Positions 13,015 to 15,663 of a DNA stretch of 64,000 nt are shown here, piece after piece. Position 1 is the stretch's first letter. Each line of letters starts with the position of its first letter. The notes beneath the pieces were generated by a model. The model saw only the letters and a list, made by a program, of their open reading frames with translations. It had not been told where the DNA came from and made no database searches. The stretch lies in assembly GCF_018310535.1 (NCBI RefSeq), contig NZ_CP074102.1, forward strand, positions 7,068,001 through 7,132,000. Reading direction: 5' to 3'. Origin of the DNA: Streptomyces mirabilis. Its GTDB lineage: Bacteria; Actinomycetota; Actinomycetes; Streptomycetales; Streptomycetaceae. Both the position numbers and the translations under genes were made by a program.

Positions 13015-13560
13015 TCACTTGTTCACGATGACGGCCTGCACGGCGTTGCTGTTGGCGTCGTAGACGCCGATGACCTGCTGCCCGTAGGCGAAGGCCTGCT
13101 GGACCTCGTCGTGGGTGACCTGGTTGGGGTTCACCAGGGGGCGCCAGGCGTTGTCGATGAACAGGTAGAGGATCGACGGCTGGCCGGGGAGCGGGGTGAC
13201 CACGTCCCAGAAGTGCTGGGCGATCCCGCTCGTCAGGACCTGCGCCTGCTGCTGTTGCTGCTGCCCGCCGAGCTGCTGGAGCAGCTGCTGGAACGGCTGC
13301 TGCTGCCCCATCTGCTGGAGCTGCTGCTGGAGGTGCTGCGGAATCTGCTGCAGCGGGATGTGCTGCTGCGGGTTCTGCTGCTGCGGGTTCTGCTGCTGCG
13401 GGTTCTGCAGCTGTCCGAACGGCTGCTGCATCTGCGGTCCGAACGCCATGGGCTGCTGCTGTCCGAACTGCTGGGGCGGTGCCGTGCTCGGTCCCTGCTG
13501 CCCCAGCTGGATGCCCTGCTGGTGCCCTTGCTGCTGACTCATCTGCGGGGTGGTGCTCAT
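13015..13560 (-). CDS. Glutamine-rich protein with subtilase-shared C-terminal domain
   Basis: A 181-residue protein in two parts. Residues 1-107 are low complexity, with about 49 glutamines plus Pro, Asn, Met and Phe and units such as QQNPQQQNPQQ, like prion-type or condensate-forming domains. Residues about 110-181 form a folded domain: SGIAQHFWDVVTPLPGQPS, LYLFIDNAWRPLVNPN, then VQQAFAYG and a final strand AVQAVIVNK. That domain closely resembles the C-terminus of the subtilase encoded 60 bases upstream (residues 514-585 there): SG-x-AE-x-YWD, LFVAGDWRNLNNP, AFAGG and a closing hydrophobic strand. There is no signal peptide, so it is cytosolic. A ribosome site (GGAAGG) lies 10 bases before the ATG. 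I do not recognise the family; it is probably the partner or substrate of the protease. Confidence 0.85.
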   Translation of the reverse strand: MSTTPQMSQQQGHQQGIQLGQQGPSTAPPQQFGQQQPMAFGPQMQQPFGQLQNPQQQNPQQQNPQQHIPLQQIPQHLQQQLQQMGQQQPFQQLLQQLGGQQQQQQAQVLTSGIAQHFWDVVTPLPGQPSILYLFIDNAWRPLVNPNQVTHDEVQQAFAYGQQVIGVYDANSNAVQAVIVNK

Positions 13561-13620
13561 ACGGGTGCCACCTTCCGTGAATCATCGAATGGTTGACTTG
13601 CGGCTACGCCCTCGGATACG

Positions 13621-15378
13621 TCAGCCCGTGACCACCAGGCCGACGATCTCGTCCTCCGAGAACCAGACACGTACGTCGGGCCGTCCGCCCGCGAAGGCGG
13701 AGTGCACCGCCTGACGGATCTCGGGGGAGGGGTTGTTGAGGTTGCGCCAGTCACCGGCCACGAACAGCCGGAGCCTGGGCGGGAGTTCGCGCGGGTACGG
13801 CAGCAGCTCGTCCCAGTACCGTTCGGCCTGGCCCGAGCCGACCGCCTCCGGCAGCAGACGGGTGACCGCCGCCTTGATGTCCGGCCGGTTGCCGATCCGC
13901 TGGGAGGCGGGTCGGCCCGGCGCGTCCTGCTGCGGGGAGCCGGTGGCCCGCAGCACCGCGCGGGCACGCTCCGGGGACATCGGTTCCTGGGCCGCCGCCT
14001 TGAGCATGCCCTGCAGCGCGGCCAGGGCGCCGACCACCACCGGGGAGGCGGAGGAGGTCCCGGAGAACGTGTCCGTGTACCAGCCGATCTCCTCGGCACC
14101 GCCCTGCAGATCGCCGGGCCGGTCCCAGAAGCCGCCGGTGGTCGTGACCTCGCGCCCCCAGCCCTGTGCGTCCACCCGCGCCCCGTAGTTGGAGAAGGCG
14201 AGGCGGGAGCGGTCCGGGCCGTGGTCGCGGCCGTGCGTGCCGGGCGGCGGTGCGCCCGCGCCGACCAGCACCGCGCCGGAGGACGGGTTGGCGGGGTTGA
14301 AGGGGTTGCGCCACCACGCGGGGAACTCGGCGGGGCGCCGCTCGTACACCGCGTCGTCGAGCGACTCGGCGCCGTTGCCCGCGGCCGCCACGACGAGCAC
14401 CCCCTTGGCGGTCGCGTACCGGATGGCCGCGAAGTTGTCGGGCCACCACTCGATCGCGATGTAACCCTGCTGGTCGTCGCGCTCCTCGAAGTCGAACCGC
14501 GGCCCTGGGGCGTGCAGTTCGACCAGGATGATGTCACCGGGACCCAGCCGTTCGGCCGCCGCGTGGATCGCGGCCGCCGTGCCCATGCCCTGGAAGGACG
14601 CGGCCGCGGTCACCGCGTCCGGCGCGATGCCGGTGATCCCGCGCTCGTCGCGGTCGCCGCCGATCACCCCGATGACGGCGGTGCCGTGGTTGCGCCAGGC
14701 GAGGTCCGTCAGCGGGGTGCCGACGACCACGCCCGCGAGCTTCGCGGACAGGTCCTCGTGGCCCAGCTGCCACGCCCCCTCCACATCGATCACCGTCACG
14801 CCCTGGCCCGTACCGCCCGGCCGCTGCCAGGCCCAGTGGGCGTCGATGCCCTCGGGCGCCGGCCGCAGATAGCCCTGGCGGCTGGTGAAGTCCGGGGTGA
14901 CCGGCGCCCCTTCCTTCGTCCGGCGGCCGTCGTCCGGGCCCGCCGAGCCCTGTGCGGTCCGCCCGGCCGACCCCACCGAGGCGGGGACGGCGCCGGGCTT
15001 CACGTACGCCGTGTCGATCTCCGGCAGCGCGGCGATCCGTGAACGAAGCTCCTGGGCGCGGCTCTCGACGCCGCGCACCCGGTAGAAGAGCGCGAGGTCG
15101 CTTCCGCCCCCGCCGTCCGCCGGCTCGGACTGCCGCAGTCGCTCCTCGCCGCCGAACAGCGGCTCCAGGGCGAGCTGTTCGTCGCTGAGGAACATGTTGA
15201 GGGCCGCCACGTCCGAGCCCGCCGCCGAGCGGACGCCCTCGGCGCCGGCGAGCAGCCGGGCCTCGGGGCGTGCGACGACGATCAGCTCCTGCTCGGCTCC
15301 CCGGTAGGTGAACCCCGCTCCGTCGGGTCCCGGCCCGGCCGTTCCCGGGCCCTGCGTCGGCTGTACCTGGTCGGTCAT
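13621..15378 (-). CDS. Cytosolic S8 subtilisin-like protease with shared C-terminal domain
   Basis: A 585-residue serine protease. The subtilase triad is complete: Asp198 (TVIDVEGAW), His231 (RNHGTAVIGV) and Ser442 (FSGTSSASP), with oxyanion Asn335 (AAAGNGAE). Residues about 25-130 may act as a propeptide or sensing domain (FTYRGAEQELIVVARPEARL), and residues 135-165 are a disordered linker. Residues 514-585 form the domain shared with the Q-rich protein encoded downstream on the same strand. There is no signal peptide, transmembrane segment or Tat motif, so it is probably intracellular, unlike most Streptomyces subtilases. The start at 15378 follows GAGAGGAGCGG; the upstream in-frame ATG (15534) has no support. 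The pairing suggests regulated proteolysis, perhaps with the shared domain driving assembly. Confidence 0.88.
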   Translation of the reverse strand: MTDQVQPTQGPGTAGPGPDGAGFTYRGAEQELIVVARPEARLLAGAEGVRSAAGSDVAALNMFLSDEQLALEPLFGGEERLRQSEPADGGGGSDLALFYRVRGVESRAQELRSRIAALPEIDTAYVKPGAVPASVGSAGRTAQGSAGPDDGRRTKEGAPVTPDFTSRQGYLRPAPEGIDAHWAWQRPGGTGQGVTVIDVEGAWQLGHEDLSAKLAGVVVGTPLTDLAWRNHGTAVIGVIGGDRDERGITGIAPDAVTAAASFQGMGTAAAIHAAAERLGPGDIILVELHAPGPRFDFEERDDQQGYIAIEWWPDNFAAIRYATAKGVLVVAAAGNGAESLDDAVYERRPAEFPAWWRNPFNPANPSSGAVLVGAGAPPPGTHGRDHGPDRSRLAFSNYGARVDAQGWGREVTTTGGFWDRPGDLQGGAEEIGWYTDTFSGTSSASPVVVGALAALQGMLKAAAQEPMSPERARAVLRATGSPQQDAPGRPASQRIGNRPDIKAAVTRLLPEAVGSGQAERYWDELLPYPRELPPRLRLFVAGDWRNLNNPSPEIRQAVHSAFAGGRPDVRVWFSEDEIVGLVVTG

Positions 15379-15663
15379 CGCGTACCGCTCCTCTCGGTTC
15401 GGTCCTGCGGGTGCTGCCGTGTCCCGTCCCCGGGCCGCGCCTTCGGGGCACAACCTGGCACGCCCACGGCGTCTCGTCCACCCCGGTTTCGCCAACTCGG
15501 TTTGAAAACAAGTTGAATTGGGAAACCTGTGCAATCCGTCCTGAAACAGATGTCACGCAGCAAACAGGCCAAAGGCTGCGGAGTCAGGTGTCATGTGGTG
15601 GGGTGGCAGGGACAGTTGATCGCCGGACCGGTCAACTTCCGGTCCCGCCCGGAAGGACGCACC
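15379..15663. promoter_or_regulatory. Divergent promoter region between subtilase and SMP-30-like gene
   Basis: This 285-base spacer contains an unusually AT-rich patch at about 15490-15575. The patch has A- and T-runs and a loose inverted repeat (AACTCGGTTTGAAAACAAGTT region). It probably carries both divergent promoters and possibly a repressor site. No gene was seen. Confidence 0.5.

Follow-up and report, generated by a model that had tools for sequence, protein, structure and literature searches.

Why should a protease that seems to stay inside the cell, and a small glutamine-rich protein encoded directly behind it, end in the same domain? The question is raised by two genes of Streptomyces mirabilis (NCBI RefSeq assembly GCF_018310535.1, contig NZ_CP074102.1), which lie in a window of 64,000 nucleotides (contig positions 7,068,001 to 7,132,000; the positions given below are counted from its first letter). 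The first gene, on the minus strand at 13621..15378, begins with ATG and codes for a subtilase of 585 residues (P0001); the second, on the same strand at 13015..13560, follows after 60 bases and codes for the glutamine-rich (Q-rich) partner of 181 residues (P0002). These positions and the 60-base gap had been given correctly by an earlier interpretation of the letters alone (the sequence-only reading), which also knew of no described family with this arrangement, and searches of open-licence PubMed Central papers likewise turned up no description of it. The analysis presented here indicates that the pair is very probably a real, dedicated functional unit, and it favours, tentatively and at somewhat less than even confidence, a shared domain that would serve as a coupling adaptor, controlling the protease through its Q-rich partner.

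The domain in question occupies residues 509-585 of the subtilase, here called the tail (13624..13854, minus strand), and residues 105-181 of the partner (13018..13248, minus strand). BLASTP aligns subtilase residues 512-585 with partner residues 108-180 at 24 identical positions of 74 (42.4 bits, E 3e-9 for a single comparison), and a profile comparison, in which 18 partner domains on one side and 15 subtilase tails on the other were kept as separate families, gives a probability of 98.0% and an E of 1.5e-13 over 67 columns. When the 77-residue partner domain is searched against its own genome, the only matches at E ≤ 1 are the query's own copy and the tail of the subtilase (E 9e-7). Together these results put the likeness far beyond chance, and the match of the two C-termini that had been noticed by eye thus stands, both in direct alignment and at the level of profiles. 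The final strand that had been read at the very C-terminus is also recovered in the predicted model (strand 75-81 of 82), which is mainly beta. No Pfam family matches the domain at E ≤ 1. A tree puts the partner domains apart from the subtilase tails with a support of only 0.19, and tail and partner copies in Streptomyces are about 30% identical; to judge from their sequences, these copies are old and dissimilar. Within overlapping samples of 394 genomes of the class, 200 of the family and 296 of the phylum, the domain appears to be known from Streptomyces only, and more distant copies may be missed. Three weak matches are ascribed to chance, that in G518 (E 0.0027) lying, by eye, on the wrong strand of a sigma-factor gene and those in G606 (E 0.001) and G744 (E 0.0096) being partial matches in unrelated frames.

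Among 150 Streptomyces genomes, 24 contain the domain, and the identical set of 24 has a subtilase match at E ≤ 1e-20. Both copies are adjacent on the same strand in 21 of these genomes, three (G011, G108 and G018) have the subtilase only, and the partner alone occurs in none of the 150. A scan of 84,980 species genomes, whose query was led by the partner domain and which therefore tests the direction from partner to subtilase, yielded 93 relatives; in each of the best 80, which were retained, the gene for a domain-bearing subtilase is immediately followed by that of the partner, at a gap of 32-129 bases (median 54). Records named S. avermitilis also contain both proteins. The sequence-only reading had described two neighbouring genes of one orientation whose products end in a common domain, and had named conserved pairing as a thing to look for; the 80 loci and 21 genomes bear out both. 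On the question of whether the two proteins also occur independently, the answer depends on the protein: the partner domain is never found without the subtilase in these 150 genomes and 80 loci, and the subtilase is partnerless in the three genomes named. In 15 examined of the 126 pair-free genomes of the sample, the flanking genes are found at this place in every case, with a distance of 87-732 bases between them in 12 genomes and of about 3.4-3.5 kb in three, and tblastn at E ≤ 1e-5 traced neither gene of the pair between them. The pair is thus mostly present or absent as a unit. The partnerless subtilases of G011 and G108 retain the Asp, His and Ser motifs. The orphan of G018 (L016:5845-7632), which has no partner and lies at another locus, carries Ala for the catalytic Asp (VGVVAVEGAW) and is possibly inactive.

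The subtilase is readily recognised as such, with a match to Pfam PF00082 (E 3e-15, 56.7 bits against a cut-off of 21.8) at residues 225-480, inside a catalytic region of residues 159-508 (13855..14904, minus strand). Its active site is complete (Asp198, His231, the oxyanion Asn335 and Ser442), and among the 80 loci the His, Asn and Ser are invariant and the catalytic Asp is kept in 78. The two loci with Val in its place (L109 and L110, VTVIVVEGAW) retain the partner, which suggests a non-proteolytic role for the subtilase there. Residues 23-133 (14980..15312, minus strand) form an N-terminal region that may be called prodomain-like on account of its conservation, of the model, in which residues 31-127 mostly reach a predicted local distance difference test score (pLDDT) of about 80-93, and of relatives from Haloferax and Nostoc, in which it can be aligned from residue 29 onward. 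No export signal is visible by inspection at the N-terminus of either protein, in agreement with the sequence-only reading, and the subtilase appears to be cytosolic. The protein shares the subtilase fold with the mycosins of type VII secretion and with the PatA/PatG cyanobactin protease, and both identities were rejected because the NCBIfam scores fall far under the family cut-offs (45 bits against 278.75 for the mycosin family and 19.6 bits against 421.05 for PatA/PatG, these being the best NCBIfam matches).

The partner is made up of low-complexity sequence and the shared domain, with no further recognised domain, and searches of Pfam, NCBIfam and PADLOC return nothing for P0002 at E ≤ 1. 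Its low-complexity, Q-rich part covers residues 1-104 (13249..13560, minus strand). In the 80 relatives, glutamine accounts on average for 43% of the segment before the domain (range 33-51%), followed by Gly, Pro and Leu; lysine is missing from this segment, and cysteine from the whole protein, in all of them. Short motifs are kept within this composition, namely QQP[FY] in 79 partners, its longer form QQP[FY][QH][QH]LL[QEH]Q in 73 and P[ST]T[SA]P in 71, and most of the proteins start with a sequence like MS[TI]TPQ. The start of the gene is conserved, as is, in the loci displayed, the ribosome-binding-like GGAAGGTG that lies 5' of it. Judging by composition, the Q-rich segment would be disordered or prion-like. 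A literature search on the idea of a nitrogen reserve or a spore protein found nothing.

A parallel that the sequence-only reading had missed is found in an archaeal plasmid. In Haloferax mediterranei, the subtilase WP_014732744.1 is 55% identical to P0001 over residues 29-509 and ends in a tail of another kind, about 81 residues long. WP_004061042.1, encoded 62 bases downstream, has 84 residues and is identical to that tail at 64 of 81 positions (79%). The protease clade, the gene order and the copying of the tail in the next gene are the same as in Streptomyces, whereas the tail is unrelated to the Streptomyces domain (probability 0.2% in a profile comparison) and the partner has no Q-rich part. 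A search with a bacterial tail of the Haloferax type returned only the Haloferax record among plasmids and nothing among phages and viral contigs. The clade is large: 4800 of the 7996 proteins scored against the Haloferax subtilase reach E ≤ 1e-60, and in 118 of the 120 best-listed relatives the segment measured from the end motif of the protease domain is 100-105 residues long. Its tails differ: the subtilase of G733 (L217:3874-6459) ends in an array of DUF346 repeats (E 1.4e-12), and a Nostoc relative has a weak, FG-GAP-like match below the cut-off (E 0.00093). Tails are thus exchangeable across the clade, and two lineages have a copy of theirs in the gene that follows. In Nostoc and Bradyrhizobium, the downstream genes examined do not repeat the tail, and the relatives examined from Mycetohabitans, Paenibacillus and genus g31 have, as judged by reading, no comparable tail; these cases count against an arrangement that is universal in the clade.

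According to the adaptor reading, a small non-enzymatic domain ends the cytosolic-looking subtilase and a second copy ends the Q-rich partner, and the copies from the two proteins would meet by binding each other. The low-complexity part of the partner may build an assembly, into which the Q-rich protein would recruit the protease or to which it would tether it, and the assembly could then set the place or time of protease action. This mechanism is favoured on the homology of the C-termini, the pairing, the joint presence and absence and the Haloferax parallel described above, and by analogy with the effector-associated domains (EADs) of nucleoside triphosphate-dependent conflict systems, in which a second copy of a small domain is carried by an adjacent gene and homotypic contact has been proposed (PMC7159879). 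In those systems the domain is non-enzymatic, the other copy sits on a core protein, peptidases are among the coupled parts, and multicellular actinobacteria have them frequently (PMC7159879). There are also differences: no gene for a nucleoside triphosphatase (NTPase), vWA, MoxR or GTPase core is among the nine neighbours scanned; most EADs are all-helical, whereas the domain here is mainly beta; and adjacent EAD copies tend to be mutually closest, which compares with identities of about 30% in Streptomyces and 79% in Haloferax. In comparison with the EADs themselves, the domain matches no model at E ≤ 1 in Pfam, a collection that includes EAD models, and the partner contains no recognised effector domain. 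The pair may therefore work like EADs, but it is not filed among them because no NTPase core gene occurs in the nine neighbours scanned. A second likeness is to HET-Q1/HET-Q2 and the protease-gasdermin pairs, which are also two-gene clusters with an intracellular S8 protease beside a dedicated partner; the excerpt of that report makes no mention of a domain shared by protease and partner (PMC10989679). P0002 has no Pfam match at E ≤ 1 that would make it a gasdermin, and no fold comparison aimed at gasdermins went beyond the one fold search.

Conservation bears on the adaptor reading in more than one way. Over the 80 loci, the tail has the highest mean pairwise identity (0.868), ahead of the catalytic region (0.855), the N-terminal region (0.797) and the partner domain (0.555, with a minimum of 0.259). 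A tail conserved to the same degree as the catalytic region thus matters to the protease with or without a partner. Partner domains fall into two types, with [FY]WDV present in 30 and absent in 49, the groups being 0.556 apart. Distances of the partner domain correlate weakly with those of the tail in excess of what the catalytic region accounts for (partial r 0.116, permutation p 0.006, 79 loci). Several observations weigh against an adaptor. None of the 77 tail positions changes its majority residue between the two partner types, a poor fit to a finely matched interface, so that the evidence for co-adaptation is mixed. The three of 24 genomes that keep the subtilase and its tail partnerless imply that the tail must serve there by itself. 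The full-length subtilase model (mean pLDDT 61.9) is too weak to be used for fold or interface, and its tail is poorly modelled (residues 514-551 and 565-585 under 50). Finally, the Haloferax case is the single one of this arrangement found outside Streptomyces, and its partner consists of nothing but the domain, which means that a low-complexity scaffold is no general feature. A broader version of the adaptor reading, to which we give a low probability, would describe a general and as yet undescribed class of intracellular subtilases in archaea and bacteria, whose C-terminal adaptor can be exchanged and always or often has a copy encoded by the following gene; the Streptomyces partner would have acquired a prion-like Q-rich segment through which the protease is brought together in condensates or filaments and thereby switched, a counterpart among subtilases of adaptor-driven caspase activation.

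The conserved tail and the bare Haloferax module can also be explained by a common ligand. The tail would recognise a glycan, a protein or some other target, for which the module of the partner would compete, or which it would shield or bridge, so that the copies need not touch. This explanation leads the rivals, as tails elsewhere in the clade resemble binding modules and the Haloferax partner is a module alone, and we nevertheless hold it to be rather unlikely. The exchangeable tails include the DUF346 repeats of G733, a family that occurs in lectins, together with the weak FG-GAP-like match in Nostoc; the fold matches tentatively suggest a small oligonucleotide/oligosaccharide-binding barrel, a fold whose members include glycan-binding subunits; and the tail stays conserved regardless of partner type and in partnerless genomes. 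A dedicated substrate is a distinctly less probable explanation. Here the domain would dock the partner and the subtilase would cut its Q-rich part, for turnover, signal release or as a nitrogen reserve, and the sequence of that part, lysine-free and probably disordered, would be suitable, as would the active site that is intact in 78 of 80 loci. Adjacent genes for protease and substrate follow a known logic, given that the S8 protease HET-Q2 cuts HET-Q1, encoded by its neighbour (PMC10989679). Against such a substrate stand the partner kept at L109 and L110 with Val for the catalytic Asp, the three subtilases that have no partner, and the Haloferax partner, which has no segment beyond the domain to be cut.

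A partner that restrains a harmful intracellular protease, as an inhibitor or immunity protein, would fit the fact that the partner is never found without the protease. This we consider very unlikely, as G011 and G108 live with an unpartnered subtilase whose Asp, His and Ser motifs are kept (only the third orphan, in G018, has Ala for Asp), and the partner gene is the second in order. It is less likely again that the domain was simply copied into a neighbouring gene without any functional link, although tandem duplication does set copies side by side: the pair has been kept across species despite the divergence of the partner domain, it is absent as a unit, and the arrangement recurs with another domain in Haloferax.

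The nine neighbours of the pair are CorA, a histidine phosphatase, DUF3090, one without a match, a class I synthetase type, SGL, PAC2, GntR-FCD and an amidohydrolase, which are housekeeping-type genes. In 13 of 14 loci examined, the pair lies between the class I synthetase-type gene, which we take to be MshC, and the PAC2 gene, and in some of them an SMP-30-like gene adjoins it; the exception is G018, with its subtilase elsewhere. The sequence-only reading had listed phage defence among the possible roles and clustering with defence genes as a thing to look for, and this part finds no support: PADLOC-DB 2.0.0 has no match for the pair at E ≤ 1 nor for the nine neighbours at E ≤ 0.001, and a defence island is rejected on this and on the constancy of the locus. 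Spread by phage or plasmid was likewise rejected, as no relative of the Streptomyces domain was found in the viral contig, plasmid or phage collections.

An inverted repeat close to CAACTTG-N9-CAAGTTG lies 5' of the subtilase gene, the block in the window being TTCAACTTGTTTTCAAACCGAGTTG (15493..15517, minus strand), and it may be an operator. The window repeat is the single match in its own genome with up to 3 mismatches. The pattern recurs within 350 bases upstream of the gene in 67 of the 80 loci, with 0 matches in the remaining 1,864,244 bases of these loci (both strands counted), a contrast that overstates independence because the pattern was built from these sequences, which share common descent. 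It was not found at the orphan loci L017 and L018.

Further observations concern the relatives of the protease. In genus g31 it occurs in 50 of 118 genomes, and six loci examined (L173, L219, L220, L221, L222 and L223) all have a small membrane-like protein gene preceding a subtilase that lacks the tail, the protein being DUF308 by Pfam in both of those tested. Internal stop codons in six of the 50 subtilase matches point to a gene that is decaying in part of the genus. In the six loci examined from genus g37 (L174-L178 and L180), a more distant subtilase with an apparent export signal has a gene that is large and conserved as its neighbour. On a Paenibacillus plasmid (L184:2614-6080), the clade subtilase stands beside two further proteases, one of type S8 and one trypsin-like, and the annotation assigns its N-terminal region to a gene of its own upstream.

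If the adaptor reading is true, the pair would be a minimal, NTPase-free example of copied-adaptor coupling built on a subtilase, and Haloferax would present a case, from another domain of life, in which the adaptor has been replaced by one that is unrelated. The gathering or activation of bacterial intracellular proteases by a prion-like partner would also become testable. With 4800 proteins close to its Haloferax member, the protease family is large, and its tails and neighbours are hardly explored.
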